This document shows, piece after piece, positions 13,965 to 39,224 of a stretch of DNA of 64,000 nucleotides (the stretch's first letter is position 1; the number at the start of each line of letters is the position of its first letter). Made by a program: the position numbers and the translations under genes. Source of the DNA: Mesorhizobium sp. ES1-1 (GTDB taxonomy: Bacteria; Pseudomonadota; Alphaproteobacteria; Rhizobiales; Rhizobiaceae); contig NZ_JAIUGX010000006.1 of the NCBI RefSeq assembly GCF_020164785.1, forward strand, positions 62,001-126,000. The letters run 5' to 3'. The notes under the pieces were generated by a model. It was not told the origin of the DNA. It searched no databases and saw only the letters and a program-made list of their open reading frames with translations.

Positions 13965-14618
13965 TCAGAAATCACTTGGGCTTTGTTGCCCGTAGGTCTT
14001 GTAGCGGGTTTTGACGACGCCAAGTTCCTCCTCCGTCAACATGACCGGCCGCCCCACGGACCTTGCCAGCAGGTACTGCCTGGCCAGGGTCTCGAGCTTC
14101 TGCGTGCGGGCGAGCGCGATGGCAAGGCTGGGGCCGAAAGAGATCATGCCGTGATTGGCCAGGAGGCAACTGTTCCTGCCGGCAAGCGCCCTTACCGCAG
14201 CCTGCGCTAATTCCTCTGTGCCGAAAGGCGCATAGTCGGAACATGGAACATCATCGCCCCCGAACGATGCGATCATGTAGTGGAAGGGAGGGATCGATTC
14301 CCGCAGGCAGGACAGGGCAACGCAATGATCGGGATGGGCATGGACGATCGCCTCGGCCTCCGGAATTGCCCGATAGATCGCCGCATGCATGTTCCATTCG
14401 CTCGACGGGCGAACCGTTCCCTGCCATTCGCCATCAAGGCTCATTTCCACCATGGAAGCCCGCCCGAGGGCATCGGGAGCAATGCCGGTCGGAGTGATCA
14501 GCATGCCTGTATCCAGCCTCAGGCTGATGTTGCCCGAGGTCCCACTATTCAGGCCCTTCGCCGCGACATGGCGCACGGCATCGACGAGGGTTTGGCGCGG
14601 ATCGATCAGGTTGGTCAT
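13965..14618 (-). CDS. otnC: Class II aldolase (3-oxo-tetronate 4-phosphate decarboxylase-like)
   Basis: A 217-residue class II aldolase/adducin enzyme. The N-terminal GLNSGTSGNISLR binds the phosphate of the substrate, HAHPDHCVAL gives the paired zinc histidines, and LLANHGMISFG holds the third. The ATG at 14618 overlaps the stop of the upstream kinase gene as ATGA, which fixes the start. The kinase partner makes OtnC (decarboxylation of 3-oxo-tetronate 4-phosphate to dihydroxyacetone phosphate) the best guess. A fuculose-phosphate or ribulose-phosphate aldolase activity cannot be excluded. Confidence 0.82.
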   Translation of the reverse strand: MTNLIDPRQTLVDAVRHVAAKGLNSGTSGNISLRLDTGMLITPTGIAPDALGRASMVEMSLDGEWQGTVRPSSEWNMHAAIYRAIPEAEAIVHAHPDHCVALSCLRESIPPFHYMIASFGGDDVPCSDYAPFGTEELAQAAVRALAGRNSCLLANHGMISFGPSLAIALARTQKLETLARQYLLARSVGRPVMLTEEELGVVKTRYKTYGQQSPSDF

Positions 14619-15955
14619 TGAACCCTCGCTTGCGGCGGCCACTCGTCGACATAAGGCTCTATGCTGACCGGCCGCGTCATCTCGTCGAGCACGGCCGAAA
14701 AGACGTCCAGCGCGCCCAGTTTTCCGGATTTGAGCATCAGAGCCACCGGAAACGGCATCTCCGCCACCATGCGACCGGTGCCCAGGCCCTGATACGGCCC
14801 GAGCGCGAAGCGCGATATCGGAAGTTTCGCAACGATTGCGCCGGCGGTTTCTCCCCCGGCGATGATAAGGCGCCGAACCCCATAGGCGAAGATCAGCTCT
14901 TGGGCCATATCGGCCAGGAAGTCCTCGGCCGCCCGGGCTACAACCTCGCGCCCGTGCTGGGCCTGCAGATTTTCCACCATATCCTGCGGGGCCGTGGTGA
15001 CGATCGCAATCGGCGTGCCTGCGGCGATGGCTCGCTGGGCCGCCGAGAGCGCTTGCGCCGCTATGTCTTCGCCGGCAAGAACGGCCGAAAGATCGACCGT
15101 GAACACCTCGCCGCGCCTGCCGAACTCGGCCAATTGCTCCGCCGTTCGCGGCGCCACGCTTCCGGCAAGGATGGCGGCAGGACCATCTATGGCAGGCAGT
15201 GTAATGGCCTCGGGCTGGCCAAGCTTGCCGCGGCGGCGCCAGGCGCTGGGGAGATGAGCGGCGACCGAGGCGTTGCCGGTAAACAGCGGCATGTCGGCAG
15301 CGGCTTCGGCGATTGCCGCAAGGTCGCGCTCATAGATCGTATCGGTAATCGCGAAGCGGATTCCGTCGGCCGCGAGGCGCTGGTAGTGCGAGCGCACCGC
15401 CTGCGCGCCTTTGTCGACCACCGGATGCGGCACGAGACCAACACGGACGGTGCTTTGCGCGGCCAGCACACGCACCAGATTGGAATCCGTCATCGGCGTC
15501 AGCGGGTCGAACCGCTTGGGCGATTCCGCGAGGATCTGCGAGCCGCCGAACATATAGCCTTGGAATACGGTCCGCTCGGTCTCGCACAGAGCTGGACAGA
15601 ACAGCACCATTTCCGCCCCAAGCAATTGCGCCAGCACCTCGGCGCACGGCCCGATATTTCCGGCCGGCGTCGAATCGAACGTGGCGCAATATTTGAAGAA
15701 GATCTGCTCGCAACCGGCCGCCAGAAACGTTCGCGCGGCGCGAAGCGTGCGCTCGACGGCCTCGGCGGCGGGAATGACACGCGTCTTCAGGGCAATCACA
15801 TGGGCAAGCGAGGCAGGGTCGATCGGCGTCTCCGCATCCGTCGAGAACCCGGTCGCCACACCGCGCGCGACCATCATGGCCGCAAGCTCCGACCCACCGG
15901 TAAGGTCGTCGGCGATCGCGCCGAACAAGAGCGGCCGCGTTCGTTGCGCTGTCAT
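14615..15955 (-). CDS. otnK: 3-oxo-tetronate kinase-like (four-carbon acid sugar kinase)
   Basis: A 446-residue DUF1537-type kinase. The N-terminal acid-sugar-binding domain starts GAIADDLTGGSELA and includes KYCATFDSTPAGNIGP; the C-terminal nucleotide-binding domain has LIIAGGETAGAIV. This is the OtnK pattern: ATP-dependent phosphorylation of a 3-oxo-tetronate at C4. The start at 15955 follows GGAAGG and begins where family similarity begins; the frame extends to 16078 with no similarity. It is coupled to the class II aldolase by an ATGA overlap. The dehydrogenase and isomerase that normally accompany these genes are not in the window. Confidence 0.82.
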   Translation of the reverse strand: MTAQRTRPLLFGAIADDLTGGSELAAMMVARGVATGFSTDAETPIDPASLAHVIALKTRVIPAAEAVERTLRAARTFLAAGCEQIFFKYCATFDSTPAGNIGPCAEVLAQLLGAEMVLFCPALCETERTVFQGYMFGGSQILAESPKRFDPLTPMTDSNLVRVLAAQSTVRVGLVPHPVVDKGAQAVRSHYQRLAADGIRFAITDTIYERDLAAIAEAAADMPLFTGNASVAAHLPSAWRRRGKLGQPEAITLPAIDGPAAILAGSVAPRTAEQLAEFGRRGEVFTVDLSAVLAGEDIAAQALSAAQRAIAAGTPIAIVTTAPQDMVENLQAQHGREVVARAAEDFLADMAQELIFAYGVRRLIIAGGETAGAIVAKLPISRFALGPYQGLGTGRMVAEMPFPVALMLKSGKLGALDVFSAVLDEMTRPVSIEPYVDEWPPQARVQ

Positions 15956-16200
15956 GGGCCAGGTGCCTTCCAATTCGCCGGCTTGAGCGGGCGTCGCGAC
16001 ATTCAAATCCGTGGCGGGAATGGAGCGACACGAACCACAGGATCTGCCCTCAGCAGCATGATCTTCCTGTGCCCGCACCTTACGTCGCGTCTACATCCAA
16101 CCTCGTCTGCGCCTTCCATAATATGAGAAATATCGATTATCAATTGAGGTTGTCGGCTGCTTGCCGGACCGACGATCCGGCAATTGCCGGCGTTCCTTGG

Positions 16201-17021: not shown

Positions 17022-18284
17022 TCAGGCTGCTTGCGGCGCCGAGAACTGACGCACGACACCCAGTTGCAGCAGTTGCGCGATTTCGTCGGCGGTATAATTG
17101 AGGACGTCTGCCAGGATTGCCGTGGTGTCTTCGCCTAGCATTGGAGGCGCCTTGTAGCGCGCATGCTCCTGCGAGGTCAGGCCTTGGGCCGGACGGACCA
17201 GCGACACAGGTCCGAGATGGTCGCTCTGGAGCGTCTGAACGACGTTGCGCGCCTTCACGGTCTGGCTCTCGAACGCCTCCGGAACGGACTTGACCTCGCC
17301 GGCGGGAACACCGTGGCGCAGGCATGCGGCCATCCAGTGATGGCGCGTGTTCTGCCGGAAAGACTGACCCAGGATCGCCAGCAAGCTGTCGCGATTGATC
17401 GCGCGGAGCGCGGACGTGGTGTAAAGCGGATTTGCCGCCACATCCGGAATGTTCAGGACCTTCTCGCACAGCGCCACGAACTGCTTGTCGTTGCCAACCG
17501 CGAGGGCGAAATTGCCATCGGAGCATTCACATATCTGATAGGGGACAACGGTCGGATGCGCGTTCCCGTAGCGGCGCGGTATGACGCCGGCGTTCAGATA
17601 TCCGCTGCCGACATTGATCAGCGTGTTCATCGCGCATTCGAGCAATGAAATGTCGATATATTGCCCGACGCCTGTCTGCTGGCGCTGGTAAAGCGCCGCC
17701 AATACGGACTGCACTGCCACCATGCCGGCGACGATGTCGGTCATAGCGACACCGATGCGTTGAGGTTCGCCGTCGACCGGACCGGTGATGGACATCAAGC
17801 CGCTTTCGGCCTGAACGACAAAGTCATAGCCTGGGCGGTCCCACTCCGGGCCAGTCTGGCCATAGCCTGAAATCGAACAGTAGATGATCTCGGGATTGGC
17901 GGCCTTGAGCGTGTCATAATCGATCTTCAACCGCTGGACCGTGCCGGGGCGAAAATTCTCAATGACGACATCCGCCTGGGCTGCGAGCCGATGGATGATC
18001 TCGAGCCCCTTGGGGTGCTTGAGGTCGAGCGCGATGCTGGACTTGCCGCGGTTGGCGCAAAGATAATAGGTGCTGACGCCCCTATAGTTTGGAACCGACC
18101 AGGCGCGGGTGTCGTCGCCGCCTTCGATATTCTCGATCTTCCAGACCTCGGCGCCAAGATCCGACAGGCTCATGCTCGCCCAAGGTCCGGCCAGCACTCG
18201 GGAAAGGTCGAGGACCTTTATACCCGTGAGCGGCAAGGCCGCGACGCTTGTCTCGCCGAGCCGGCCGTCAACGGATTGCGCCAT
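17022..18284 (-). CDS. Class III CoA-transferase (CaiB/BaiF family)
   Basis: A 420-residue family III CoA-transferase moving CoA between acyl-CoA and a carboxylic acid. [19 protein letters not shown] starts the fold, and [13 protein letters not shown] and ISGYGQTGP are typical core motifs. The catalytic aspartate is expected near [10 protein letters not shown]. The start at 18284 is fixed by GGGAGGAAAC directly upstream. Only 23 bp separate it from the last ABC transporter gene, so it is probably the last gene of that importer operon. The imported or processed compound may thus be activated as a CoA thioester. Confidence 0.9.
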
Positions 18285-18307
18285 GTTTCCTCCCATTCGC
18301 GGACGCC

Positions 18308-19357
18308 CTAGGCCAGTCGTGCCTGGCCGGGCAGGACGTTTTCGACCGGCCCCGGGAAGTGACACGCAACGAGATGGCCAGGCTCGACTTCAGCAAGCGG
18401 GGGCTTCACTCGCGCACATATGTCCTGCGTCTTGAAACACCGTGTGCGGAACGGACAGCCCGATGGAGGATTGATCGGGCTTGGAACATCGCCTTTCAGA
18501 ACGATCTGATTGCGGCTCCGCTCCAGGTCAGGATCCGCGACGGGTACGGCGGACAGCAAGGCTTGCGAATATGGATGCAGCGGCCGTGCATAAAGATGAT
18601 GCGCCGCTGCCACTTCGACAAAGTTGCCCAGATACATTACCGCGACCTTGTGCGAGATGTGCCGCACCACAGACAGGTCATGCGCTATGAAGACATAGGC
18701 GGTCTGCATCCTCTGCTGGATTTCCTGGAGGAGGTTCAGCACCCCGGCCTGAACGGAGACGTCAAGCGCCGATACCGGCTCGTCCAGGACGAGAACCTCG
18801 GGCTTAAGCGCCAGAGCGCGCGCGATGACGACGCGCTGGCGCTGTCCGCCCGACAGCTGATGCGGATAGCGTTTGCCGTGCGCGGCGGCGAGATTGACCA
18901 GATCGAGCATCTCCCGCACCCGCTCGCCCCGCTGTGCTCGCGACATTTTCAACAGACGCAACGGCTCGGCGATGCTGTCTTCTATGCGCATACGCGGATG
19001 CAGGGAACCGTAGGGATCCTGGAAAACCAGTTGCAGATGACGACGCATCTGCCGCATCTCGGCGGCGCCGAGCGAAACGATATCCACGCCACCGACGGTG
19101 ACACTGCCGGAGGTTGGTTCGATGAGGCGAAGCAGGCAGCGCCCCAGCGTGGACTTGCCGCATCCCGATTCGCCGACAAGGCCAAGCGTCTGGCCGCGAT
19201 CGAGATCGAAGGAAATGTCGTCGACCGCCTTGAGCTGCGCGACCTCGCGGCGGATCACCGCGCCCCCCACGATCGGGAAGATCTTGCGCAGATTCCGGAC
19301 CGACAATGCGGTGCCTGGTGTGTCGCCTTGTGGTGTGAGAGCGGCGACGTCAGTCAT
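18308..19357 (-). CDS. Dipeptide/oligopeptide-type ABC transporter ATP-binding protein (DppF-like)
   Basis: A 349-residue ATPase. Walker A is GESGCGKST, the signature is LSGGQRQR and Walker B is [14 protein letters not shown]-terminal oligopeptide_HPY-type extension has paired cysteines (CPFRTRC...DIC) as in DppF/OppF. The start at 19357 overlaps the stop of the upstream ATPase gene by 8 bp; an ATG three codons earlier is also possible. With the second ATPase it would power import of a peptide-like or other small solute across the inner membrane. Confidence 0.92.
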
Positions 19358-20399
19358 TGGCACCATTTTCCGGCGCAGCGGCGCCAAGGCCTCCGTTCCA
19401 TGCCGGCAGGCTGGCGGCGAAGTGGCAGGCAGATTTGTGCGTTCCCACCCTGTGGGTCGGAGGCTCCACCTTGCGGCATACATCCTGGGCATAGGCACAG
19501 CGTGGATGGAATGCGCACCCGCCGGGCAATGCGCCGAGCATGGGCGGCGCACCCGGGATCGAATAGAGCTTGTCTTCGGACATTGTGAGCTTCGGGATCG
19601 AAGCAATCAGCCCGCGCGTGTAAGGATGGCGCGGATCGGCGAACAACTCACGTACCGCCGCTTCTTCGACAACCCGGCCGGCATAGATCACCGCCACCCG
19701 GTCGGCATGGCCAGCAACGACGCCGAGGTCGTGGGTGATCAATACCAAGGCGAGCCCGAGCTTGTCCTTCAGATCGCGAAGCATCAGCATAATCTGCGCC
19801 TGCACGGTGACGTCGAGCGCGGTCGTCGGCTCGTCGGCCACCAGCAATTCCGGATCGTTGGCCACCGCCATGGCGATCATGACGCGCTGGCGCATGCCGC
19901 CCGAAAACTCATGCGGATATTGGTTGATCCTGCCCTGCGGTTGCGGAATGGCCACCAGCCGCAAAAGGTCCAAAACCCTCTGCGTCGCCTTTTGCTTGGT
20001 CATCTGACGGTTGTGCAGATAGAGCGCTTCGCGGATCTGGTCGCCCACTGTCATGACAGGATTGAGCGATGACAGCGGATCCTGGAAGATCATGCTGATC
20101 TGCGCGCCCCGGAGCGCGCGCAGCTCTCGCCGCGGCCGGCCGATCAGTTCCTGGCCCTTGAAGCGAACGGAGCCGCTGACGAGCGCGTTGCGTGCCTGTA
20201 ACCCGAGCGACGCCAACATGCCCAAGGACTTGCCGGACCCGGATTCGCCGACAACGCCGAGCACTTCGCCGCGCGACACATGAAGGTCCAGCCCGCGCAC
20301 GGCAGGCAGGGTGCCGTTGCGCCCGGAGAACCCCACATTGAGATCGCGGATGCGCAACAGCGCGTCGACGCCATCGGCCTCTGCAATCGGCGCGGTCAT
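19350..20399 (-). CDS. Dipeptide/oligopeptide-type ABC transporter ATP-binding protein (DppD-like)
   Basis: A 349-residue ATPase with Walker A GESGSGKS, signature FSGGMRQR, Walker [13 protein letters not shown], and the C-terminal extension [14 protein letters not shown] typical of DppD/OppD. The ATG at 20399 overlaps the upstream permease stop as ATGA, which selects this start over the much longer frame reaching 20783. It is the third gene of the dppBCDF-like operon. Confidence 0.92.
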
Positions 20400-21241
20400 T
20401 TGGACGATCTCGGATCGAAATAATCGCGCAGGCCGTCGCCTATGAAATTGAACCCCAGCACGACGGTCAGGATCGCCATGCCAGGACCAAAGGCGATCCA
20501 CCAGCTGTAGAAATAGGTCGCGCCATCCGAGATCATCGCGCCCCATTCGGGTGTCGGCGGTGTGGCGCCCAGTCCGATGAAGCTCAGCGACGCGGCGAGA
20601 AGGATGACCTGGCCGATATCCATGGTGGCGCTGATCAGGATGGGTGTCCAGCACAGCGGCAGGATGTGCTTGGTGAGAATGCGAAAGTGTCCGGCGCCGG
20701 CGGCCACGGCCGCCTCGACATGCTCGCGCTCGCGCACCTCGAGAACCTGTGCGCGCATCAGCCGCGCATAGACCGGCCACCACACCACGACCATCGCGAT
20801 GCCGGCATTGCCAAGCCCCGGCCCGAGCGACGCAGCGACCGCCATGGCGAGCAGCATGGGCGGAAACGACAGCGTGATATCGACCAGCCGCATGATCGCA
20901 GCGCCGATCAGGCCACCGCGATATCCGGCGATGGCGCCGGCGCCGGCGCCGATGACGACGGCGCTCGTCACGACGATCAGGGCGATGGGCAGCGAGTGCC
21001 GCGCGCCATGGATCATGCGCGAAAATACGTCGCGGCCCAACGCATCCGTCCCCAGCAGATAATTGGCGCTGGGCCCCTGCAAGCGGCGCCCGGCCAGTTC
21101 GAGCGGGTCATGTGGCGCCAGCCAATATGGGAAAGCCGTCGCCGCGAGCCACGCCAGGACGACGAGACCCCCGACGATGAATGTAGGCGTTGCCCAGTCG
21201 GGGAGTTGGAAACGCGTTCGCGTGGTCTGGACCAGGGCCAT
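20396..21241 (-). CDS. Dipeptide-type ABC transporter permease (DppC-like)
   Basis: An inner-membrane permease of about 281 residues with an N-terminal helix, a periplasmic segment (PHDPLELAGRRLQGPS...LGTDALGRDVFSR, the classic DppC signature) and five further helices. The EAA loop for ATPase contact is EREHVEAAVAAGAGHFRILTK (shown without its flanks). ATG 21241 is used here. A TTG at 21256 that overlaps the DppB stop (TTGA) is an equally plausible start and would add five residues. Confidence 0.9.
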   Translation of the reverse strand: MALVQTTRTRFQLPDWATPTFIVGGLVVLAWLAATAFPYWLAPHDPLELAGRRLQGPSANYLLGTDALGRDVFSRMIHGARHSLPIALIVVTSAVVIGAGAGAIAGYRGGLIGAAIMRLVDITLSFPPMLLAMAVAASLGPGLGNAGIAMVVVWWPVYARLMRAQVLEVREREHVEAAVAAGAGHFRILTKHILPLCWTPILISATMDIGQVILLAASLSFIGLGATPPTPEWGAMISDGATYFYSWWIAFGPGMAILTVVLGFNFIGDGLRDYFDPRSSK

Positions 21242-21252
21242 CGCCTCAACCG

Positions 21253-22266
21253 TCAATTCAGCCGGACCCGGGGATTCGCAAGAACATAGGCGATATCCGT
21301 CAACAGGTTGGTGATCAGGAACATGACGCCGCCGACTATGGTAACGCCGATGATGGCGGGGAAATCGAGCGACCGTGCGGCGGTAACGGCGTAGCTGCCG
21401 ACCCCCGGCCAGGCAAACACCGATTCCGTCAGGACCGCGCCGGTGATGAGATAGGCGAAGGAGTAGCTGATGACGGTGAGCACCGGCACCAATATGTTGC
21501 GGAAAGCGTGGCGCAGGACCACCCTTATCTCACCTGCGCCCTTGGCGCGCGCCGTCAGAATGAACTCGCGCTCCATTACTTCCAGCATGTTGGCGCGGAC
21601 GAGGCGGGAGATGGTGCCCGCGACGGTCCAGCCGAGGACAAAGGAAGGCAGCACGAGATGGGCCAGCGCATCCCTAAAGGCGGTCATATCGCCGGCCAGC
21701 AAAGTGTCGATGGTCATGAAACCGGTGATGACGGGCGGCGGCGACATGCGGGGATCGATCCGCCCGAGACCCGGCAGGACCTGAAAATAGACTGAAAAGA
21801 CAAACAGCAGAGCGAGGCCCATCCAGAAGATCGGCACCGAAGATCCGAACAGGGAGAAGAGACGCGCGACCTGATCGATCGCCGTGTCGCGATAGTAGGC
21901 GGCCAGCAACCCGAAAAGGATACCGACCACACTGCCTATGATCATGGCAGCGAGCACCAGCTCGAAAGTCGCCGGCAGGCGCGCCACCAGATCTGTCGAA
22001 ACCGGCCTGCGGGTGACGAAGGACGTGCCCATGTCGCCTCGCAGCAGGTTGCCGACATAGATGAGATACCGCTCCGGCAAGGGACGATCCAGGCCCCAGC
22101 GCTGCCTCGCCGCTGCGACGATTTCCGGGTTGTTCATCTGCTGTTCGCTGACGACGGCCGTCAGAGGATCGCCCTTCGTGACCGTTGTCAGAAGAAACGC
22201 CATGGTGACGATGCCCAGGAGAATGAAGGGCATCGCGATGCCGCGCCGGAGAATATAATTCAGCAT
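21253..22266 (-). CDS. Dipeptide-type ABC transporter permease (DppB-like)
   Basis: A 337-residue permease, first gene of the importer operon. MLNYILRRGIAMPFILLGIV is the usual DppB N-terminal helix. GLDRPLPERYLIYVGNLLRG and the C-terminal DFPAIIGVTIVGGVMFLITN are family hallmarks. The start at 22266 is where family similarity begins; an open frame to 22341 lacks it. The promoter lies in the divergent region shared with the iclR-type gene, 89 bp from a putative IclR operator. The binding protein for this importer is probably the one encoded at 33964. Confidence 0.92.
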   Translation of the reverse strand: MLNYILRRGIAMPFILLGIVTMAFLLTTVTKGDPLTAVVSEQQMNNPEIVAAARQRWGLDRPLPERYLIYVGNLLRGDMGTSFVTRRPVSTDLVARLPATFELVLAAMIIGSVVGILFGLLAAYYRDTAIDQVARLFSLFGSSVPIFWMGLALLFVFSVYFQVLPGLGRIDPRMSPPPVITGFMTIDTLLAGDMTAFRDALAHLVLPSFVLGWTVAGTISRLVRANMLEVMEREFILTARAKGAGEIRVVLRHAFRNILVPVLTVISYSFAYLITGAVLTESVFAWPGVGSYAVTAARSLDFPAIIGVTIVGGVMFLITNLLTDIAYVLANPRVRLN

Positions 22267-22354
22267 CGCCTTCCCAAGGGTTCCCCGGTTGCCACCCCTC
22301 CTCGAGCGGTCATTGGGCAATATTGACAAGCCTCGAAACACCCGTCAATAGAAA

Positions 22355-22475: not shown

Positions 22476-23339
22476 ATGCGAAAACGAAACAAGCCGATTA
22501 TCGCGCCGACGAGCGAGGATGCAGGGCATTCTTCCGCACTCGTGCGTGGATTGCAAATCTTGCGCGCCTTCACGCCAGCCGACGCCTCGCTCGGCAATCA
22601 GGATCTGATCGAGCGCACCGGCCTTCCCAAGGCGACCATTTCGCGCCTCACCTATACGCTGATAGGCCTGGGTTACCTGATCTACGACCCCGCTCTCGGT
22701 CGCTACCGCGTCGGTCCGGCGACCGTATCGCTGGGCTATTCCGGGCTGAGCAGCAGCGCCGTCATCTACATGGCCAAGCCCTTGATGCAGGCGTTGGCCA
22801 TCGACACCGGTGTGGCGGTCGCGATGGGCATGCGCGACGGGCTGGAAATGGTCTATGTCGCCAACTGCCGTCCAGAAACTCCGGTAACGCTGCGGTTGAA
22901 CGTCGGATCGCGCCTGCCGATCTGGCAGACATCCATGGGGCTCGCCTACATGGCGGCCATGGAAGACGCTGCGCGCGACAAGATTGTTTCCAAGCTTGTC
23001 GAAGCTCACCCCGACAGGAAGCACGTGATGCTCTCGGCCATCGATCGGGCACGCGAGAGCTATGCCCGCCAGGGCTTCGTCACGTCTTTCGGTGAATGGT
23101 ACAGCTATATCAATGCCGTCGGCATTCCGTTCCGCCCAACGGACGGGTCGCAGCTGGTTGCCATTACCTGCGGCGGCATCAAGGATCTCGCGCCTGTCGA
23201 GGAGTGTCTGGGCAGCTTCGCGCCACGGCTCAAGGACCTGGTGGCGGAGCTCCAGGGTCGCCTGACGGGGGCCATCCCGCCTTTCGCACAGCCCGACGCC
23301 GGCGAGACGCCCTCCGACGGGTTCGACTACAGGGGATAG
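22476..23339 (+). CDS. IclR family transcriptional regulator
   Basis: A 287-residue regulator. The winged helix-turn-helix is at about residues 20-80 (SSALVRGLQILRAF, then LIERTGLPKATISRLTYTL); the effector-binding IclR domain follows to about residue 265 and ends with the usual LVAITCGGI. The ATG has a GGCAGGAG ribosome binding site. It is divergent from the ABC importer and is the first gene of a plus-strand run with the E2-like, acyl-CoA dehydrogenase and aminotransferase genes. The two putative operators suggest it controls both the importer and the distant E1 region, in addition to itself. Confidence 0.92.
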   Translation: MRKRNKPIIAPTSEDAGHSSALVRGLQILRAFTPADASLGNQDLIERTGLPKATISRLTYTLIGLGYLIYDPALGRYRVGPATVSLGYSGLSSSAVIYMAKPLMQALAIDTGVAVAMGMRDGLEMVYVANCRPETPVTLRLNVGSRLPIWQTSMGLAYMAAMEDAARDKIVSKLVEAHPDRKHVMLSAIDRARESYARQGFVTSFGEWYSYINAVGIPFRPTDGSQLVAITCGGIKDLAPVEECLGSFAPRLKDLVAELQGRLTGAIPPFAQPDAGETPSDGFDYRG

Positions 23340-23346: not shown

Positions 23347-24651
23347 ATGCCGGTCGCGATTGTATTCCCGAAAGTGAGCCTCGAAACCGATGTCGGCACC
23401 ATTGCGCGCTGGCTGAAGGATAACGGCGCGGCCGTCGCTCCAGGCGAAGCCCTGTTCGAGATCGACAATGACAAGGCGGCTGTCGAAGTCGAAGCCACGG
23501 CGCCCGGCACCGTGGTGCATCTGCGCAAGGCCGGCGACGAGGTGCGGGTCGGGGATGTGGTCGGACACATTCTGGCCGCCGGCGAACAGCCTCCGGCCCT
23601 CACGTCAACGACAGGGACCGAGCCATCGGCCGAAACCACAGGCGGGCCGCAGCCGCCGACCAATAAACAAGCTTCGCATGGCGGCTCGCGCATCGTCGCG
23701 ACGCCGCTGGCGCGTCGCCTGGCCGAGCAGTCAGCGATTGACCTCTCGGCCATCCAGGGGTCCGGGCCGCGCGGACGCATCCAGAAGAAGGATTTGATCG
23801 GACTGGCAAAGGCATCCGGTGCCGCGCAGAAGGCGGCTACCGGCGCTCGTTTGAACGCCGTCTGGCTTCAGAAGGAAGGCGCGGGGACCATCGTCGCCCT
23901 GCACGGCTTTGCCTCCGACCACAATGCCTGGCGGACCCTGCTTGCCGCAGGCCGCCCGGATGCTCGCTTCCTGGCGGTTGACTTGCCGGGCCATGGTGGC
24001 TCCCCCCGCACGGTCCCCGCCGATCTCGACCTGGTTTGCGATATGGTCGAAGGCGTGCTTGCGGAGCAAGGCGTGGACAGCGCGACCGTAGTCGGCCATT
24101 CCTTCGGCGCTGCGGTCGCCGCAAGGCTTGCCAGCCGTGGCTTTCTTTCCGTGCGCTCCCTGCTGATGATTTCTCCTGCCGGACTCGGACCCGAGATCCG
24201 GGAGGAATTCCTCAAAGGCTTCGTCGCCGCGAGGCAGGCGTCCAGCCTGCTGCCCTGGCTGCGGGAACTGGTCTTCGACCCCGGCGTCCTTTCGCAGGCA
24301 TTCCTGCGCAGCGTGGAGGAGCAGCGCAGGGATGAGGGGCTTTCGGCTTCGCTGAGGGCTTTTGCGGAGCTGCATTTCTGTGACGGCACGCAGACCTTCT
24401 CGATCCGCCCCGACCTTGAAAGGCTTCGGATGCCGGCGCGTATCATTTTCGGCATACAGGACAGGATCATTCCTTTCAGCCATTGCCACGCCCTGCCCGG
24501 TCGTATCGGCCTTCATGCGTTTCAGCGCTGTGGCCACCTGCCGTTCCTGGAACAGCCTGACATGACGATGTCGATCCTCGAGGAAATGCTGGCGCTGGCC
24601 AATGCCAGCGACACGGCTTCGCTTGGCGAGCGGACACGCCATGTCGCTTGA
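23347..24651 (+). CDS. E2-like protein: lipoyl domain + E3-binding domain + alpha/beta hydrolase (AcoC-type)
   Basis: A 434-residue fusion. Residues 1-78 form a biotinyl/lipoyl domain with the lipoylation Lys43 in EIDNDKAAVEV. Residues 115-155 form a peripheral subunit-binding domain (VATPLARRLAEQSAIDLSAI). Residues 175-415 form an alpha/beta hydrolase with Ser252 in GHSFG, Asp372 and His397. The usual acyltransferase core with HxxxDG is absent, as in the acetoin dehydrogenase E2 subunit AcoC. By family it would accept the acyl group made by a thiamine-dependent E1, presumably the fused E1 at 31761. It begins 7 bp after the IclR gene. The chain carries no E3 activity, and none is encoded in the window. 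Confidence 0.88.
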   Translation: MPVAIVFPKVSLETDVGTIARWLKDNGAAVAPGEALFEIDNDKAAVEVEATAPGTVVHLRKAGDEVRVGDVVGHILAAGEQPPALTSTTGTEPSAETTGGPQPPTNKQASHGGSRIVATPLARRLAEQSAIDLSAIQGSGPRGRIQKKDLIGLAKASGAAQKAATGARLNAVWLQKEGAGTIVALHGFASDHNAWRTLLAAGRPDARFLAVDLPGHGGSPRTVPADLDLVCDMVEGVLAEQGVDSATVVGHSFGAAVAARLASRGFLSVRSLLMISPAGLGPEIREEFLKGFVAARQASSLLPWLRELVFDPGVLSQAFLRSVEEQRRDEGLSASLRAFAELHFCDGTQTFSIRPDLERLRMPARIIFGIQDRIIPFSHCHALPGRIGLHAFQRCGHLPFLEQPDMTMSILEEMLALANASDTASLGERTRHVA

Positions 24652-25801
24652 GCCCGAGATTTTCCAGCAATTGCTCGAGACCGTCCGCCGGTTCGTCAAG
24701 GAGCGTCTTGTTCCACTCGAAGCGGAGGTCAGCCGGTCCGACCGGGTGCCGGGAGGCGTCAAGCAGGAGATGCGCGAGCTGGGCTTTTTCGGCCTCTCCA
24801 TTCCGCAGGAGTTCGGCGGACTGGGCCTGACCATGGAGGAAGAGGTCCGCGTCACCTTCGAGCTCGGCCGCACATCGCCGGCCTTCCGTTCGGTTTTCGG
24901 CACCAATAACGGCATCGGCTCGCAGGGTATCGTCATGGACGGCACCGACGAGCAGAAGCGCCATTATCTGCCCCGCCTCGCCACAGGCGACATTATCAGT
25001 TCGTTCGCCCTAACGGAGCCGGAGGCTGGCTCGGACGCGGCGTCGCTGCGCACGACAGCGCGCAGGGAGGGCGAGTTCTATATTCTGAACGGCACCAAGC
25101 GGTTCATCACCAACGCGCCCTATGCCGATCTTTTCACAGTGTTTGCCCGCACGGAGTCGGCAAGCCGCCCCGAAGGGGTGGTAACCGCCTTTCTAATCGA
25201 CGCCAGGACGCCCGGCCTGTCGCTGGGAAAGATCGACAGGAAAATGGGACAATCCGGCTCCCACACCTGCGATGTCATATTCGAGGATTGCAAGGTCCCG
25301 GCATCGGCTGTGCTTGGCGGCACGGAGGGACAGGGCTTCAAGACGGCGATGAAAGTGCTGGACCGGGGTCGCCTCCACATTTCCGCCCTCTGCGTCGGCA
25401 TGGCCGAGCGCCTGATCGCCTACAGCCTGTCCTACGCCATGCAGCGCAAACAGTTCGGCCAGCCGATCGCCGAGTTCCAGTTGATACAAGCCATGCTGGC
25501 CGATAGCCGCGCCGAAACCTACGCGGCCAAATGCATGGTGCTGGAGACCGCGCGCGGCAAGGACCGCGGCGACAACGTCTCGACCGACGCGGCGTGCTGC
25601 AAGATGTTTGCCAGCGAAATGGTCGGACGGGTTGCCGACCGCGCGGTTCAGATCCATGGCGGAGCCGGCTATATGGAAGAATACGGCATCGAGCGCGCCT
25701 ACCGGGACGTGCGTCTGTTCCGGATCTACGAGGGGACCACGCAGATCCACCAGATCCTGATCGCCAGGAACATGATCAAGGAAGCCCTTGCCGCCGCCTG
25801 A
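24641..25801 (+). CDS. Acyl-CoA dehydrogenase
   Basis: A 386-residue FAD enzyme forming a trans-2-enoyl-CoA. FALTEPEAGSDAASL and the C-terminal QIHGGAGYMEEYGIERAYRD are diagnostic. The catalytic base is Glu364 in RIYEGTTQIH, at the position used by short- and medium-chain enzymes. The ATG at 24641 overlaps the E2-like gene by 11 bp, so the two are translationally linked. Substrate chain or branching cannot be read from the sequence. Its place in the operon suggests it desaturates the CoA ester made in this pathway. Confidence 0.92.
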   Translation: MSLEPEIFQQLLETVRRFVKERLVPLEAEVSRSDRVPGGVKQEMRELGFFGLSIPQEFGGLGLTMEEEVRVTFELGRTSPAFRSVFGTNNGIGSQGIVMDGTDEQKRHYLPRLATGDIISSFALTEPEAGSDAASLRTTARREGEFYILNGTKRFITNAPYADLFTVFARTESASRPEGVVTAFLIDARTPGLSLGKIDRKMGQSGSHTCDVIFEDCKVPASAVLGGTEGQGFKTAMKVLDRGRLHISALCVGMAERLIAYSLSYAMQRKQFGQPIAEFQLIQAMLADSRAETYAAKCMVLETARGKDRGDNVSTDAACCKMFASEMVGRVADRAVQIHGGAGYMEEYGIERAYRDVRLFRIYEGTTQIHQILIARNMIKEALAAA

Positions 25802-25902: not shown

Positions 25903-27288
25903 ATGTCCTTGAACGAGCCGACCGAAACCAATGCGATGGATCTCGCCTATCATTTCCATTCGCAGACCAACCCTCAGGCCTTATCGCGCGAAGGCGCCTA
26001 TGTCGTGGTCAAGGGCGACGGGGCTCACGTCATAGACGAGAGCGGCAAGCGCTATATAGATGCGATGGCGGGGCTGTGGTGCGCTTCGCTCGGCTTCAAC
26101 GATCAGCGCCTCGGACAAGCGGCGGCCGCGCAGTACCAGGAACTCGGCTATTATCACAGCTTCTACGGCCGCACGAACCCGAAGGCGGCGGCGCTCAGCA
26201 AGAAGCTCGTCGAACTGACGAAGATGGAGGGCGGGCGCACTTTCTTCGTGACATCCGGCTCCGAAGCCAATGAAACCATGGTCAAGCTGGCCTGGCTTTA
26301 TCACGCCTCGCGCGGCAAGCCGACCAAGCGCAAGATCATTGCGAGGGACCGGGCCTTCCACGGATCGACCATTGTCGCCGGATCGATGTGCGGCCTGGAG
26401 ATGATGCACCGCGAGTTCGGACTGCCGCTGCCGGGTTTCGTGCACACGCTGCATCCGAACAGTTACCGCGTGAAGCTGCCCGATGAAAGCGAAGGCGAAT
26501 TCGTTGGCCGGCTGGCGGCCGAACTCGAACGGCTGATCCTGCGGGAAGGGCCGGACTCCGTCGCCGGTTTCATCGCGGAGCCGGTGATGGCGGCCGGAGG
26601 GATCCTGCCGCCGCCGGCGGGATATTTCGAAGCGGTCCAGACGATCCTGACCAAATACGACATATTGCTCCTCGACGACGAGGTCGTCTGCGGATTTGGC
26701 CGGACGGGCAACTGGTTCGGGTGTCAGACTGTCGGCATGCAGCCCGACATGATGTCGCTGGCGAAAGGCATCACATCCTCCCACTTCCCGCTCGCAGCCG
26801 TGGTTGTGGCGCCGAAGATCATCGAAGCGGTGGAGCGCTACAATGAAGGCGGCACATCGTTCGGGCACGGCTTCACCAATGCCGCGCATCCCGTAGGGGC
26901 CGCCGTCGCCCTGGAGGCCATCGCCATCTACGAGGAACTGGAAATCGTCGCCCGGGTCCGCAAGATGGGCGCGCTGCTTTTCGATCGGCTGAAGCATGCA
27001 ACCAGGAATTCGTCCATTGTCGGGGACGTGCGCGGGATCGGGCTGATGTATGGTGTGGAACTGGTGGAGGACCGGGACACCAGGGCACCTTTCGCCCCGG
27101 CGCGCATGATCGGCGCCAAGCTGGCGGCCAGCGCCTACGAGCATGGACTCGTCGTCCGGGCGATGCGCGATACGATAGGCTTCTGCCCGCCGCTGATCAT
27201 CAACGAGGCGGATGTCGAAGAGATCGGCGGCAAACTCGAGAAGGCCCTGGCCGACGTGGAAAGGGATCTTCGGCAGCAGTCCATCTAG
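25903..27288 (+). CDS. Class III aminotransferase (omega-amino acid/diamine:pyruvate type)
   Basis: A 461-residue fold-type I PLP enzyme. The Schiff-base Lys288 is in SLAKGITSSHFPLAA, Asp259 in LLLDDEVVCGFGRTG binds the pyridine nitrogen, and TSGSEANETMVKLA lines the phosphate site. The closest family type is omega-amino acid, putrescine or taurine:pyruvate aminotransferase. ATG 25903 begins similarity; another ATG lies 11 codons downstream. It follows the acyl-CoA dehydrogenase by about 100 bp in the same direction. Confidence 0.9.
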   Translation: MSLNEPTETNAMDLAYHFHSQTNPQALSREGAYVVVKGDGAHVIDESGKRYIDAMAGLWCASLGFNDQRLGQAAAAQYQELGYYHSFYGRTNPKAAALSKKLVELTKMEGGRTFFVTSGSEANETMVKLAWLYHASRGKPTKRKIIARDRAFHGSTIVAGSMCGLEMMHREFGLPLPGFVHTLHPNSYRVKLPDESEGEFVGRLAAELERLILREGPDSVAGFIAEPVMAAGGILPPPAGYFEAVQTILTKYDILLLDDEVVCGFGRTGNWFGCQTVGMQPDMMSLAKGITSSHFPLAAVVVAPKIIEAVERYNEGGTSFGHGFTNAAHPVGAAVALEAIAIYEELEIVARVRKMGALLFDRLKHATRNSSIVGDVRGIGLMYGVELVEDRDTRAPFAPARMIGAKLAASAYEHGLVVRAMRDTIGFCPPLIINEADVEEIGGKLEKALADVERDLRQQSI

Positions 27289-27384: not shown

Positions 27385-28593
27385 TCAGACCCGCTCGATG
27401 GCAATGGCGATGCCCTGCCCGACGCCGATGCACATGGTTGCCAGTGCCAGTCTGGCGCCGCGTTCCCGCAATTCCAGCGCGGCGCTGCCCGTGATGCGCG
27501 CTCCCGACATGCCGAGCGGATGGCCAAGCGCGATTGCACCGCCATTCGGGTTTACATGCGCCGCGTCCTCGGCCAGGCCGAGCTGCCGCAGGACGGCAAT
27601 GCCTTGTGCGGCAAAAGCCTCGTTGAGTTCCACCACGTCGAAATCGCCGGGGGTCAACCCGAGCCGCTGGCACAGTTTCTTTGTGGCCGGCACCGGCCCC
27701 ATGCCCATGAAGCGCGGCTCGACGCCGGCGGTCGCCGCGGCGAGAACCCGCGCGATCGGGGTAAGCCCATGCTTCCTGGCCGCCGCCTCGGAAGCCAGGA
27801 TCAGCCCGGCCGCTCCGTCATTGACGCCGGATGCATTGCCCGCCGTGACCGTGCCGCCCTCCTTGCGGAAAGGCGTCGGCAGCAGCGATAGTTTGTCCAC
27901 GGTGGTTCCCGCACGCGGATGCTCGTCCCGATCGACAATCACGGCCTCGCCCTTGCGCTGGGGGATGGTTACCGGCGCGATCTCGCGGGCGAGGCGTCCG
28001 TTCGCCTGCGCCGCGACAGCCTTGTCCTGGCTGCGCACGGCGAAAGCGTCCTGATCCGCGCGAGAGACCGAAAATTCGGCCGCCACATTCTCGGCGGTCT
28101 CGGGCATCGAATCCACGCCATATTGCTTTTTCATCAATGGGTTCACGAAGCGCCATCCGATGGTCGTGTCGTAGATCTCGGCATTGCGCGAAAATGCCTC
28201 GGACGCTTTCGGCATGACAAAAGGCGCGCGCGACATGCTCTCGACGCCGCCGGCGATCGTGAGTTCGGCCTCGCCTGCCTTGATCGACCTCGCCGCGATC
28301 GAGATCGCATCCATGCCCGATCCGCACAGGCGGTTCACGGTGGCGCCCGGCACCCCGACTGGCAAGCCGGCCAGCAGCGACGCCATGCGCGCGACGTTGC
28401 GGTTGTCCTCGCCGGCTTGGTTGGCGCAACCAAGGATGACGTCATCGACGGCCTCCCAGTCCACTGTGGCATTTCGGCCCATCAGCGCCTTGAGCGGAAC
28501 GGCGCCAAGGTCGTCGGCGCGAACCGCCGACAAGGATCCTCCAAAACGGCCGATCGGCGTGCGGATGTAATCGCAGATGAAGACTTCGGTCAT
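27385..28593 (-). CDS. Acetyl-CoA acyltransferase (3-oxoadipyl-CoA thiolase-like)
   Basis: A 402-residue thiolase. The nucleophile is Cys90 in NRLCGSGMDAI, the general base lies in GAIALGHPLG and the second cysteine in TMCIGVGQG. The N-terminus (MTEVFICDYIRTPIGRFGGS) and length are those of PcaF, which cleaves 3-oxoadipyl-CoA to succinyl-CoA and acetyl-CoA. No other beta-ketoadipate pathway gene is nearby, so a different 3-oxoacyl-CoA is possible. It is 46 bp downstream of the SMP-30 gene and probably ends that operon. Confidence 0.9.
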   Translation of the reverse strand: MTEVFICDYIRTPIGRFGGSLSAVRADDLGAVPLKALMGRNATVDWEAVDDVILGCANQAGEDNRNVARMASLLAGLPVGVPGATVNRLCGSGMDAISIAARSIKAGEAELTIAGGVESMSRAPFVMPKASEAFSRNAEIYDTTIGWRFVNPLMKKQYGVDSMPETAENVAAEFSVSRADQDAFAVRSQDKAVAAQANGRLAREIAPVTIPQRKGEAVIVDRDEHPRAGTTVDKLSLLPTPFRKEGGTVTAGNASGVNDGAAGLILASEAAARKHGLTPIARVLAAATAGVEPRFMGMGPVPATKKLCQRLGLTPGDFDVVELNEAFAAQGIAVLRQLGLAEDAAHVNPNGGAIALGHPLGMSGARITGSAALELRERGARLALATMCIGVGQGIAIAIERV

Positions 28594-31760: not shown

Positions 31761-33935
31761 GTGCGGAAGCATGAACTGAGGCCATCGGCGCCCTGGTACA
31801 GGATCGAAACCGACGAGGCGGATTGGGCCGCCGTGCCGGAACGCGACCTCGTTCAGCTTTACAGCCAGATGCAGCTGATCCGGCGCTTCGAGGAGAAGAT
31901 CCTCGAACTCGAAAAGTCGGGCCTCGTCCACGGCCCTGCCCATGCCAGCATAGGCCAGGAGGCAGCGGCCGTCGGCGCCATGTCGATCCTGCGCGCCGAC
32001 GACCAGATCAACGGCACGCACCGCGCCCACCACCAGGTCCTGACTAAACTCGTCAATGCGCAGACACAGACCTATTTCGATATCCGCAGTGCCGATTTTA
32101 CAGAGCCGATGAGCGAAGCGGTCTACCGGCTGATGGCCGAGATCATGGGGTTGCTGCCGGGCTATTGCGGGGGCCGCGGCGGCTCGATGCATATGCGCGA
32201 CGCGGCCTCCGGCGTGGCCGGAACCAGCGCGATCGTCGGCGGCAACATTCCGCATGGCGTCGGCTACGCGCTGGCGGATCGGGTGCTTGGCCGCGACGGG
32301 ATTTCGGTGACGTTCTTCGGCGACGGCGCTTCGCTGCAGGGAGCGACCTATGAATCCATGAACATCGCCGCCGCCTACAAGCTGCCGGTGATCTTCTTCG
32401 TGGAGAACAATCTCTACGCCGTGTCGACGCACATCGACGACGTGACTGCGGAGCCCCGTATCGCCTCGCGCGGCCCCATGCTCGGCTTCACCGGCATCGA
32501 ATGCGACGGCATGGATGTCGTGGCGGTCCACCAGGCAATGGCCGACGCGCGCGCGATCATCCGCGAGGGGCGCGGGCCGGTGGTGGTCGAGGCGAGATGT
32601 TATCGGCATTTCCACCAAAGCGGTGGCAAGACGGGCAGCGAGTTCGGCTACCGCAGCCGCGAGGAAGAACAGGAGTGGCTCAAACGCGATCCGTTGCGCC
32701 TTGCCGAGCAGCGCCTGGCGGCACTCGGCATACTGGACAGCGCCGGCTTTGCCCATATCGATGCAAGCGTCAGCGCCGTGGTGCAGGCGGCCGCCAACCG
32801 GCTGACGGAAACCATGCCGGGAAGCAATCAGCCGCGCATCCCCGAAGCCCTGTGGCCCTCGCCACAAAGCGTGGATGATGGGATCCTGGCGGACCCATCG
32901 GAAAGCGCCGGCCTGAAATATCGCGAGATCGAGGATTTCGCCGAGGGCGAACTGGTCAAGACCCGGTTCGTGACCGCTGCGGGAGAGGCGTTGAGCGCTG
33001 CAATGGCCGCGGATCCCACCATCATTGTTCTTGGCGAGGACGTGCACCGTCTTCGCGGCGGGGTCAGCGGTTTCACACGCTCGGCCCTGGAACAGTTTCC
33101 AGGCCGGGTTCTGGCGATGCCGATCGCGGAAAACGGCTTCACAGGCGTGGCACTCGGTGCTGCGCTGCGCGGGTTGAGGCCCGTGGTCGAAATCATGTTC
33201 GGCGACTTCTGTCTCGTCGCCGCCGACCAGATCGGCAATGGCATCGCCAAGGTGCGCCATATGTTCGGCAGCGGTTTCCCCGTGCCGGTCGTGCTGCGTG
33301 TGCGGGTGTCGCCCCACACAGGTTACGGCTCGCAGCATTCGGGTGACCCGTCGGCGCTGTTCAGGCTTTTCCCCGGCTGGCACATCGTGTCGCCGACCAG
33401 CCCGTTCGACTATGTCGGGCTGCTCAACACCGCGCTGAAATCCAACGATCCCGTAGCCATCATCGAGCATGTCGAATTCTACCAACGCGAGGGAATGGTG
33501 CCGCGCGACGAGCGCGACTATTGCATCCCGCTCGGCAAGGCCAAGATCGTGCGATCAGGATCGGCCTGCACGGTTCTGGCGACCTCTGCCATGGTGCCGA
33601 CGGCGTTGAAGGTCGCCGAGGAAACCGGCATCGATGCCGAGATCATCGACATGCGCAGCGTTGGCCAACTCTCCACGGACTGGCCGCTCGTTCTGCAATC
33701 CGTCGCAAAGACAAACCGGGCCATCATAGCCGAGCAGGTCTCCAGCGGCTTCACGCTCGGGCGCCACTGGATCGCCGAGATCCAGTCTCGCGCCTTCGAT
33801 GATTTGGATCATGAGATACTTCACGTGACAGGCAGCCTGTCGGCTCCCGTCGTATCGGCCGTCCTGAACAAGGCCGCGCTGGGGTCGGCCGACAAATTGC
33901 GGAGCGCGATGGAGTTGATTACCGAGACTGCCTAA
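31761..33935 (+). CDS. 2-oxoacid/acetoin dehydrogenase E1, fused alpha and beta subunits
   Basis: A 724-residue thiamine diphosphate enzyme. The alpha part (about 30-350) has HASIGQEAAAVG, GGRGGSMHM and the cofactor motif GDG (187-189) ending in ENN (215-217). The beta part (about 372-715) starts VTAAGEALSAAMAADPTII and has PIAENGFTGVALGAALRG. Alpha and beta are separate chains in most pyruvate, branched-chain and acetoin E1 enzymes; here they are one. The GTG at 31761 is used because a TAG lies two codons before it and GGGAGG is upstream. It should hand an acyl group to the lipoyl E2-like protein at 23347. Confidence 0.9.
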   Translation: MRKHELRPSAPWYRIETDEADWAAVPERDLVQLYSQMQLIRRFEEKILELEKSGLVHGPAHASIGQEAAAVGAMSILRADDQINGTHRAHHQVLTKLVNAQTQTYFDIRSADFTEPMSEAVYRLMAEIMGLLPGYCGGRGGSMHMRDAASGVAGTSAIVGGNIPHGVGYALADRVLGRDGISVTFFGDGASLQGATYESMNIAAAYKLPVIFFVENNLYAVSTHIDDVTAEPRIASRGPMLGFTGIECDGMDVVAVHQAMADARAIIREGRGPVVVEARCYRHFHQSGGKTGSEFGYRSREEEQEWLKRDPLRLAEQRLAALGILDSAGFAHIDASVSAVVQAAANRLTETMPGSNQPRIPEALWPSPQSVDDGILADPSESAGLKYREIEDFAEGELVKTRFVTAAGEALSAAMAADPTIIVLGEDVHRLRGGVSGFTRSALEQFPGRVLAMPIAENGFTGVALGAALRGLRPVVEIMFGDFCLVAADQIGNGIAKVRHMFGSGFPVPVVLRVRVSPHTGYGSQHSGDPSALFRLFPGWHIVSPTSPFDYVGLLNTALKSNDPVAIIEHVEFYQREGMVPRDERDYCIPLGKAKIVRSGSACTVLATSAMVPTALKVAEETGIDAEIIDMRSVGQLSTDWPLVLQSVAKTNRAIIAEQVSSGFTLGRHWIAEIQSRAFDDLDHEILHVTGSLSAPVVSAVLNKAALGSADKLRSAMELITETA

Positions 33936-33963: not shown

Positions 33964-35577
33964 ATGAAAATGGGGAACATCAATCAATTCTCGAAGCTGC
34001 GCTGGAAAAGCCTTGCTTCGGCGACAATGCTGCTGGGCCTGGCAGCGATCGCCACGCCCGCTGACGCCAAGACGCTGGTCATCGCACGCGACATGGACAT
34101 CAACTCGCTGGATATCACGCGGGGCTGGTGCGACACCTGCATGATCTACAACGCGGCGGTCTATGACGGCCTTCTCGGGCTCGACGCTAAGAACAAGCTG
34201 GTCCCTGTTATCGCGGAAAGCTGGGAAGCAAGCGCCGACCAGACGACCTTCACTTTCAAGCTGAACCCGAAAGCCAAGTTTTCCGATGGTTCGCCTGTCG
34301 AGGCCAAGGATGTCAAATGGTCGTGGGAGCGGCTAAAGAACATAAAGGGTAGCCCCTCCGACCTCGCCGCTTCGATCGCATCGATCGAAACGCCTGACGC
34401 GGCAACCGTCGTCGTCAAGACGGCGGCGCCGAATTCGGAACTCCTGAACGTCCTGGCGGCCAGCTATTTCGGCGTCGTCAACAGCGATGTAGCCCAGGCC
34501 GAAGGCAAGGCGTCGTCCGCCGCCGATGCCGCGACGACCGACCAGGCGGAACCCTGGTTCCTGGCGCACTCGGTCGGCGCCGGTCCGTTCGTGCTGGAAT
34601 CGTACCAGCCTGGCGCCGAACTGCGCCTGAAGCGCAATGAGAATTATTGGCGCGAGCCGGCAAAGGTCGACGAGATCGTCATCCGCCAGGTCGGCGATGC
34701 CGTCGCGCAGGCTCAATTGCTGCAGAGCGGGCAGGCTGATGTGGCCATGAACATCGATCCGGAAACGGCCAAAACGCTGACCGGCGACAATGTGAAAGTC
34801 GAGTCCGCGCCTTCCAACAATTTCGTCTACATGACGCTGAGCCCCGGCGCGGTGTCGAACCCCGTGCCGATGACGCCGGAAATCCGCGAAGCCATCTCCA
34901 TGGCAGTCGATCGCAATTCGCTGATCGAGTTCACGCTCGGCACGGGCAATGGCCGTCTGATCTCCGTGCCCTTCCCGCTCGATTTTCCTGGCGGCGCGAA
35001 CCACCCAATTCCGGAATACAATCCGGAAAAGGCCAAGGAAATGCTGGCGAAGGCCGGTCATGCCGACGGATTCACCCTCGACGCGACCTACCCGAAGCTG
35101 AACGTCTATGGCGTCGACTTCACGCTCGCCATGCAGAAGATCCAGCAGGATCTGGCAAAGGTGAACATCAAGCTGGAATTGCAACCGGTCGAATTCCCCA
35201 ACTGGCGTGAGAAGGCGACGAAGGATCACATCCCGCTTTCGTTCGTTTTCTTCGCACCGGATTTCTACGGCACCTCGCAATATGTTGGCTATTTCGGCCT
35301 GGCGCCCGATTCACCCTGGGCAAAGCGTGGCGGCGGCGAACGCGACCCTTCCTTCCTGTTGCCCGAGACCAAGACCATGCTCGCGGAAGCGTTGAAGTCG
35401 ACGCCGGAGAAAGCCGAGAAGATCTACTTCGACATCGGCGAGAAGATCCGCGCCCAGAATGTGATCATTCCAATGATCAGCCCGAACACCATTCTCGCCT
35501 TCGGCAGCAAGGTCCACGGGGTACGCAATTCGCCGAGTTCCAACGTTCCCCTCTACGAGATCTCGATCGACAATTGA
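33964..35577 (+). CDS. ABC transporter substrate-binding protein (SBP family 5, peptide type)
   Basis: A 537-residue periplasmic protein with a signal peptide to about residue 35 (cleavage near PADAKT). Family 5 hallmarks are VYDGLLGLD, LVPVIAESWEAS, FTFKLNPKAKFSDGSPVEAKDV (split here across the motif) and the C-terminal NTILAFGSKVHGVRNSP. Two cysteines close together (GWCDTCM) could form a disulfide. It starts 28 bp after the E1 gene with GAGGAG upstream. It is the likely binding protein of the importer at 18308-22266, which has no binding protein of its own, and is followed by a terminator. Confidence 0.92.
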   Translation: MKMGNINQFSKLRWKSLASATMLLGLAAIATPADAKTLVIARDMDINSLDITRGWCDTCMIYNAAVYDGLLGLDAKNKLVPVIAESWEASADQTTFTFKLNPKAKFSDGSPVEAKDVKWSWERLKNIKGSPSDLAASIASIETPDAATVVVKTAAPNSELLNVLAASYFGVVNSDVAQAEGKASSAADAATTDQAEPWFLAHSVGAGPFVLESYQPGAELRLKRNENYWREPAKVDEIVIRQVGDAVAQAQLLQSGQADVAMNIDPETAKTLTGDNVKVESAPSNNFVYMTLSPGAVSNPVPMTPEIREAISMAVDRNSLIEFTLGTGNGRLISVPFPLDFPGGANHPIPEYNPEKAKEMLAKAGHADGFTLDATYPKLNVYGVDFTLAMQKIQQDLAKVNIKLELQPVEFPNWREKATKDHIPLSFVFFAPDFYGTSQYVGYFGLAPDSPWAKRGGGERDPSFLLPETKTMLAEALKSTPEKAEKIYFDIGEKIRAQNVIIPMISPNTILAFGSKVHGVRNSPSSNVPLYEISIDN

Positions 35578-39212: not shown

Positions 39213-39224
39213 TCGGAGAACAAG

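Follow-up and report, generated by a model that had tools for sequence, protein, structure and literature searches.

At positions 23347-24651 (+) of the window, by which we mean the whole stretch of 64,000 nucleotides of Mesorhizobium sp. ES1-1 DNA that was analysed, lies an open reading frame whose 434-residue product has the make-up of an E2-type subunit. The features of the locus are given below; counts are descriptive and refer to the 23 cluster loci introduced further on.

13965-14642 (-): class II aldolase; 13-14 of 23 cluster loci
14615-16078 (-): 3-oxo-tetronate kinase-like protein (384 bits, cut-off 350); 17 of 23 cluster loci
17022-18365 (-): CaiB/family III CoA-transferase; 23 of 23 cluster loci
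18308-20366 (-): two dipeptide-type ABC ATPases (ends approximate); 23 of 23 cluster loci
20396-22341 (-): two ABC permeases, 21253-22341 and 20396-21256 (Pfam); 23 of 23 cluster loci
22476-23339 (+): IclR-family regulator (Pfam); 23 of 23 cluster loci
23347-24651 (+): E2-type subunit with lipoyl, E3-binding and alpha/beta hydrolase domains, 434 aa (Pfam, NCBIfam, AF2)
23359-23568 (+): lipoyl domain, residues 5-74 (Pfam); predicted lipoylation site Lys43 at 23473-23475
23692-23793 (+): E3-binding domain, residues 116-149 (Pfam), preceded by a flexible linker, residues 89-112
23890-24561 (+): alpha/beta hydrolase domain, residues 182-405 (Pfam); Ser252 at 24100-24102, Asp372 at 24460-24462, His397 at 24535-24537
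24641-25801 (+): acyl-CoA dehydrogenase (Pfam); 20 of 23 cluster loci
25918-27288 (+): class III aminotransferase (start approximate; a longer ORF runs from 25531)
27385-28593 (-): 3-oxoadipyl-CoA thiolase PcaF (682 bits, cut-off 597); only 5 of 23 flanks
31761-33935 (+): fused E1 alpha-beta, a thiamine-diphosphate dehydrogenase/ketolase that presumably pairs with the E2 (E1_dh, Transket_pyr and Transketolase_C)
33964-35577 (+): family 5 solute-binding protein of an ABC transporter; 19 of 23 cluster loci
35713-36672 (+): class IV aminotransferase, 70% identical to the copy at locus L040

The E2 gene is tightly packed between its neighbours: the stop codon of the IclR gene precedes its start by 7 bases on the same strand, and the ATG of the acyl-CoA dehydrogenase gene (24641) overlaps its stop codon (24649-24651), confirming the link to an acyl-CoA dehydrogenase that a preliminary description of this DNA had pointed out. 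Between the class III aminotransferase and the fused E1 lies a block of opposite-strand genes encoding the PcaF thiolase, an SMP30-like protein, a PALP protein and a short-chain dehydrogenase. The best NCBIfam match of the CaiB protein, succinate-glutarate CoA-transferase, is under the cut-off of that model (373 vs 750 bits). Adjoining the cluster, at 38286-43762 of the window, are the end-joining genes for Ku and LigD, which lie on opposite strands.

Pfam assigns to the E2 a Biotin_lipoyl domain at residues 5-74 (E = 2e-10), an E3_binding domain at 116-149 (5.5e-14) and an Abhydrolase_6 domain at 182-405 (1.6e-23), and the 2-oxoacid dehydrogenase acyltransferase core is absent from the six Pfam families that the protein matches at E <= 0.001. 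Read from the translation, residues 43, 252, 372 and 397 are Lys, Ser, Asp and His. The preliminary description had proposed intact lipoyl and E3-binding domains with Lys43 and, as catalytic core, an alpha/beta hydrolase with a Ser252-Asp372-His397 triad; both proposals stand on the Pfam matches and the residues, and the second on the alignment as well. Its view of the core swap as unusual does not hold per se: because AcoX-linked E2s carry the same hydrolase core, the swap is of a known kind and the window protein represents a new sub-branch of it. The three-domain hydrolase-core architecture is already covered by databases in the form of the NCBIfam model NF011457 ("acetoin dehydrogenase E2"), for which the window E2 scores 344.3 bits vs a cut-off of 307, in keeping with the resemblance to AcoC noted earlier.

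The AlphaFold (AF2) model of the protein (mean pLDDT 89.2, pTM 0.67) is confident for the lipoyl and hydrolase domains; residues 89-112 have a pLDDT under 50, which suits the linker of a swinging arm. The Ser, Asp and His of the triad are identical in all 131 aligned rows, the window E2 counted, making a covalent acyl-serine the natural reading. The position of Lys43 is a lysine in 126 of these rows, the other five being exactly the stand-alone hydrolases that have no lipoyl domain. From this alignment L115, whose frame is broken early, was dropped, L147, a broken gene beside transposases, was omitted, and L055, a near copy, was thinned. For the own-genome stand-alone hydrolase (contig C9), no neighbour was recognised in the ORF list. 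In the fold search with the predicted model, the nearest solved structures, at Z about 29 and with an rmsd of 2.1-2.7 across some 250 residues, were meta-cleavage-product C-C hydrolases (16-24% identity), and the HsaD family model gave the window E2 47 bits vs a cut-off of 400. No acyltransferase was recognised among the best 50 matches in each of two fold searches, a method that is unable to separate hydrolase from transferase. In a sequence search of solved structures, the N-terminal part matched lipoyl/E3-binding proteins and the C-terminal part hydrolases, and the best 60 of 164 matches include no full-length relative.

The E2 gene belongs to a conserved alphaproteobacterial cluster that comprises a fused E1, an IclR regulator, a dipeptide-type ABC transporter, CaiB and an acyl-CoA dehydrogenase. 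Among 80 genome loci sampled out of 509, and among plasmids, 23 cluster loci (21 genome contigs and two plasmids, from Shinella, Agrobacterium, Mesorhizobium, Ochrobactrum-type Brucella species, Rhodobacteraceae and others) were picked by hand because the cluster was visible, and the identity cut-offs were set after viewing the neighbourhood table; the gene counts that follow are descriptive for these reasons. CaiB, both ATPases, both permeases and IclR were each found in 23/23 loci; the fused E1 (within 10 kb), the acyl-CoA dehydrogenase and an aldehyde dehydrogenase each in 20/23; the solute-binding protein in 19/23; the kinase-like gene in 17/23; a class III aminotransferase of the L040 type and the class IV aminotransferase each in 13/23; a hydroxyacyl-CoA dehydrogenase in 12/23; PcaF in 5/23; and the class III aminotransferase of the window type in 3/23. 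Absences are not firm since the flanks stop at 10 kb. The genomes of L045-L047, with no fused E1 in the flank view, still encode one (84-85% identity), and the distance between fused E1 and E2 is about 28 kb on the L046 contig and, likewise on a shared contig, about 27 kb in G080. The window has no match to the hydroxyacyl-CoA dehydrogenase of the cluster, and its only match to the aldehyde dehydrogenase is one of 36% identity far from the E2, at 3898-5280. As to distribution, 23/151 genomes of the same family have an E2 match at E <= 1e-40 and 12/398 genomes of the phylum a match over the NF011457 cut-off, the own genome being counted in both cases, and 65 plasmid records have an E2 match at E <= 1e-20.

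The relationship of this E2 to AcoC was addressed by phylogeny, for which the preliminary description had called. In a hydrolase-domain tree of 100 rows, one clade (100/92) unites nine AcoX-linked E2s with three close relatives, and two E2s of sugar loci (L132, L146) join it (99/95). The clade of the window E2 consists of 24 rows (100/98), namely 23 fused-E1 cluster rows, the window included, and one other, L100, a 3.9-kb contig that is the sole row without the cluster; 21 of the 23 picked loci are rows of the tree, all of them inside this clade. It falls among the other 81 E2 rows (98/97), apart from the acetoin-type clade, and a tree in which the acetoin and window groups were forced together was 99.9 log units worse (p-AU 4.6e-6). 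Tight clustering with acetoin E2s was thus not found; the two groups are separate clades whose joining is rejected. Domain make-up draws the same line. An E3-binding domain profile scored 24-76 bits in 23/23 relatives from same-family genomes, which had been retrieved with the whole E2 protein as query, and <=0.2 bits in 12/12 acetoin-type E2s and in L132 and L146; among the controls, four ORFs of the genome's other E1-E2 loci scored 18-59 bits and the others listed <=5.3. The missing E3_binding domain of acetoin-type E2s rests on these profile scores, the Pfam list giving the best 25 of 38 families, and a further E3-binding count of 51/51 is biased because those loci were retrieved with patterns that include the E3-binding motif. 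Gene content agrees: AcoX has no match in the own genome nor in G080 and was found in 4/4 acetoin-locus control genomes, and tblastn of the window (E 1e-10) with AcoX, AcoR and butanediol dehydrogenase of one Paracoccus locus as references gave no match, AcoR and butanediol dehydrogenase being accessory genes that do not occur in every AcoX locus examined. The preliminary remark that acoR and acoX are not present here was therefore correct and, for AcoX, extends to the whole genome. Judged by these sequence comparisons, the window E2 is not the acetoin enzyme and has an ancestry separate from that of AcoX-linked E2s.

The fused E1 that the preliminary description had reported is borne out at 31761-33935 (+) by its E1_dh, Transket_pyr and Transketolase_C domains. 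Its alignment retains GDG...NN as well as the beta-subunit Glu and His, which we take to be the E1 motifs. Its identity is 35-37% with five acetoin E1s, 34% with the pyruvate-type E1 of the genome and 28% with the branched-chain-type one (types assigned by neighbourhood), values that point to no substrate, and its assignment as an acetoin or branched-chain E1 was dropped. In the E1 tree, whose backbone is unresolved and where long branches meet, the fused E1s of the cluster are a clade of their own (seven rows, 100/99) away from acetoin E1. Three lipoamide dehydrogenases over the cut-off are encoded in the own genome, all on other contigs; in two relatives, L043 and L100, lpdA adjoins the E2 gene.

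Other E1-E2 arrangements were seen in passing. The own genome has a second E1alpha-E1beta-E2 set (C3, 109739-112957; L150), whose hydrolase-type E2 is 35% identical to the window E2 and belongs to another clade, and, on contig C12 (L181, 4261-6693), a fused E1 of ~810 aa with a lipoyl-like C-terminal stretch and an E3-binding ORF ~1 kb downstream. Hydrolase-core E2s labelled acetoin dehydrogenase also occur on plasmids (L146, L149, L043) in sugar loci that encode an FGGY kinase, a sugar isomerase, a transaldolase and a class II aldolase.

On this basis we propose, with roughly even confidence, that the catabolic cluster encodes a dedicated E1-E2 complex other than the acetoin enzyme, with the window gene product as its E2, whose Ser252 would pass the lipoyl-bound acyl group to CoA. 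The fused E1, as the presumed partner, would bind thiamine diphosphate, cleave a 2-oxo acid or alpha-hydroxyketone derived from an imported compound and reductively acylate the lipoyl group predicted on Lys43. Swinging over to the hydrolase domain on its linker, the lipoyl domain would present the acyl-dihydrolipoyl thioester to Ser252, which, aided by His397 and Asp372, would attack it to give an acyl-serine. From this intermediate CoA could accept the acyl group, and the product would enter the branch of acyl-CoA dehydrogenase and thiolase. A lipoamide dehydrogenase encoded elsewhere, recruited by the E3-binding domain, would re-oxidise the lipoyl group. Transfer to CoA is the outcome we favour, at even odds or a little better, given the acyl-CoA dehydrogenase and thiolase of the cluster, the economy of the reaction and the product of acetoin dehydrogenase, which in Pelobacter is acetyl-CoA according to the excerpted text of one study (PMC3543383), where the E2 may be of another type. 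Counting against it are the predicted fold, whose nearest solved relatives are hydrolases, and the presence in 23/23 clusters of CaiB, which would be needed if a free acid were released. The pairing of E1 and E2 has against it the 7.1-kb gap between their genes in the window with opposite-strand genes in between, and the proposal as a whole the hydroxyacyl-CoA dehydrogenase that the window lacks and its distant aldehyde dehydrogenase match. An omega-amino acid degraded via a dicarboxylyl-CoA was considered as substrate and would fit the CoA-transferase, aldehyde dehydrogenase, aminotransferases, hydroxyacyl-CoA dehydrogenase and PcaF; we name no substrate because the 3-oxo-tetronate kinase and the aldolase do not fit that route. 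Further substrate clues sought in the G080 cluster and its Mesorhizobium counterpart (a split transketolase, luciferase-like monooxygenases and a shikimate-dehydrogenase-like gene) were not decisive.

The same complex could instead work as a lipoyl-tethered thioesterase: once the acyl group had moved to Ser252, water would free the acid and CaiB would add CoA, making the oxidative cleavage itself independent of CoA. The preliminary description had considered release of a free acid alongside an unusual transfer. We regard such release as less likely, yet as a serious rival: it would suit the hydrolase fold with its complete triad, the best structural matches, which are C-C hydrolases that include HsaD and BphD (Z about 29), and the occurrence in every cluster of a CoA-transferase whose best match, under cut-off, is a dicarboxylate CoA-transferase, but it would waste the energy of the thioester, CaiB may act at another step of the pathway, and the acetyl-CoA of the Pelobacter acetoin dehydrogenase (PMC3543383, as excerpted; E2 perhaps of another type) speaks for a CoA acceptor. 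That the window E2 is the ordinary acetoin dehydrogenase E2 of its database name, as its NF011457 score (344 vs 307 bits) and the hydrolase core and conserved residues it has in common with AcoX-linked E2s would have it, is very improbable and was rejected on the tree (AU p 4.6e-6), the domain make-up and the gene content: its clade is separate, its E3-binding domain is missing in 12/12 acetoin-type E2s, AcoX is not in the genome yet present in 4/4 acetoin-locus genomes, AcoR and butanediol dehydrogenase have no match in the window, and its E1 (35-37% identical to acetoin E1s) belongs to another clade. Equally improbable is an alteration of the lipoyl-bound product by the hydrolase domain before release, for instance C-C cleavage of a tethered beta-dicarbonyl, which would fit the closest solved structures, by sequence as well as by fold meta-cleavage-product C-C hydrolases, but has against it an identity of only 16-24% and the use of the same core by AcoX-linked acetoin E2s, which need no such step.

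The sister group of the window clade (joint clade of 43 rows, 99/91) is made up of part of the DRL-type E2 rows. Among 58 DRL-type loci, hand-picked in the same manner as the 23 cluster loci (L041, L042, L059-L119 and others), E1alpha and E1beta directly precede the E2 in 57/58 and PTS glucitol genes are present in 46/58, and a DXR-II/DRL-type oxidoreductase lies upstream in 47 of the 49 with enough upstream sequence. The own genome has such a locus on contig C10 (about 73500-77555; L180), whose E2 shows no hydrolase core because the contig ends after its E3-binding domain. The oxidoreductase matches structure 3UPL, presumably the Brucella DRL, with 709 bits in the L041 copy and 730 bits in the own-genome copy. 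DXR-I (TIGR00243) has no match in the own genome and matches 9/14 control genomes, and the single DRL_cat gene of the genome is that upstream of E1alpha, E1beta and E2 on C10 (0/14 controls match). A ketolase-type E1 and the presumed sole MEP-forming enzyme of this genome may be encoded in one operon. One speculative idea is that the PTS would take up methylerythritol, that DRL running in reverse would yield 1-deoxyxylulose 5-phosphate and that the E1-E2 pair would cleave it in an acetoin-like manner; the excerpted text of a study in E. coli describes pyruvate dehydrogenase E1 mutants that enable cellular DXP synthesis (PMC3424233).

As far as the open-licence literature tells, the sub-branch that combines an E3-binding domain, a fused E1 and this cluster appears to be uncharacterised, and no title among the open-licence matches listed concerns a serine-hydrolase core replacing the acyltransferase core. 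Public records label close relatives of the window E2 acetoin dehydrogenase subunits, a label that would assign the wrong substrate to a whole sub-branch owning a conserved cluster. E2s of the kind that carries an E3-binding domain are a clean system for deciding between CoA and water as acceptor. A broader and rather doubtful possibility is that of a widespread lipoyl E1-E2 family that needs no CoA acceptor, its built-in serine thioesterase setting free an acid (or a hydroxy acid) that CaiB would activate in the window cluster; if true, much of the family would be mislabelled as 'acetyltransferase'.

Compared with known systems, the window E2 has lipoyl and E3-binding domains in common with the classical E2 acyltransferases of the pyruvate, 2-oxoglutarate and branched-chain dehydrogenases, whose usual core-forming domain is missing and replaced by an alpha/beta hydrolase. 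The predicted fold of this C-terminal domain is that of meta-cleavage-product C-C hydrolases (HsaD, BphD, CumD, DxnB2), whose solved chains, unlike the window E2, are about 260-285 residues long and devoid of lipoyl and E3-binding domains. AcoC-type acetoin E2s (NF011457; e.g. that of Paracoccus pantotrophus, L044) resemble it in their lipoyl domain, Ser-Asp-His hydrolase core and nearby E1, but are of another clade and have no E3-binding domain (0/12), and the AcoX loci examined encode split E1 subunits and AcoX where the window has a fused E1 in an IclR/CaiB/ABC transporter cluster. The DRL-E1alpha-E1beta-E2 loci of Phyllobacterium, Aminobacter, Ochrobactrum and others (L041, L059) carry the same three-domain E2 as the window; they combine it with a split E1, a DXR-II-like oxidoreductase and PTS glucitol genes, whereas the window combines it with a fused E1, IclR, CaiB and an ABC transporter.
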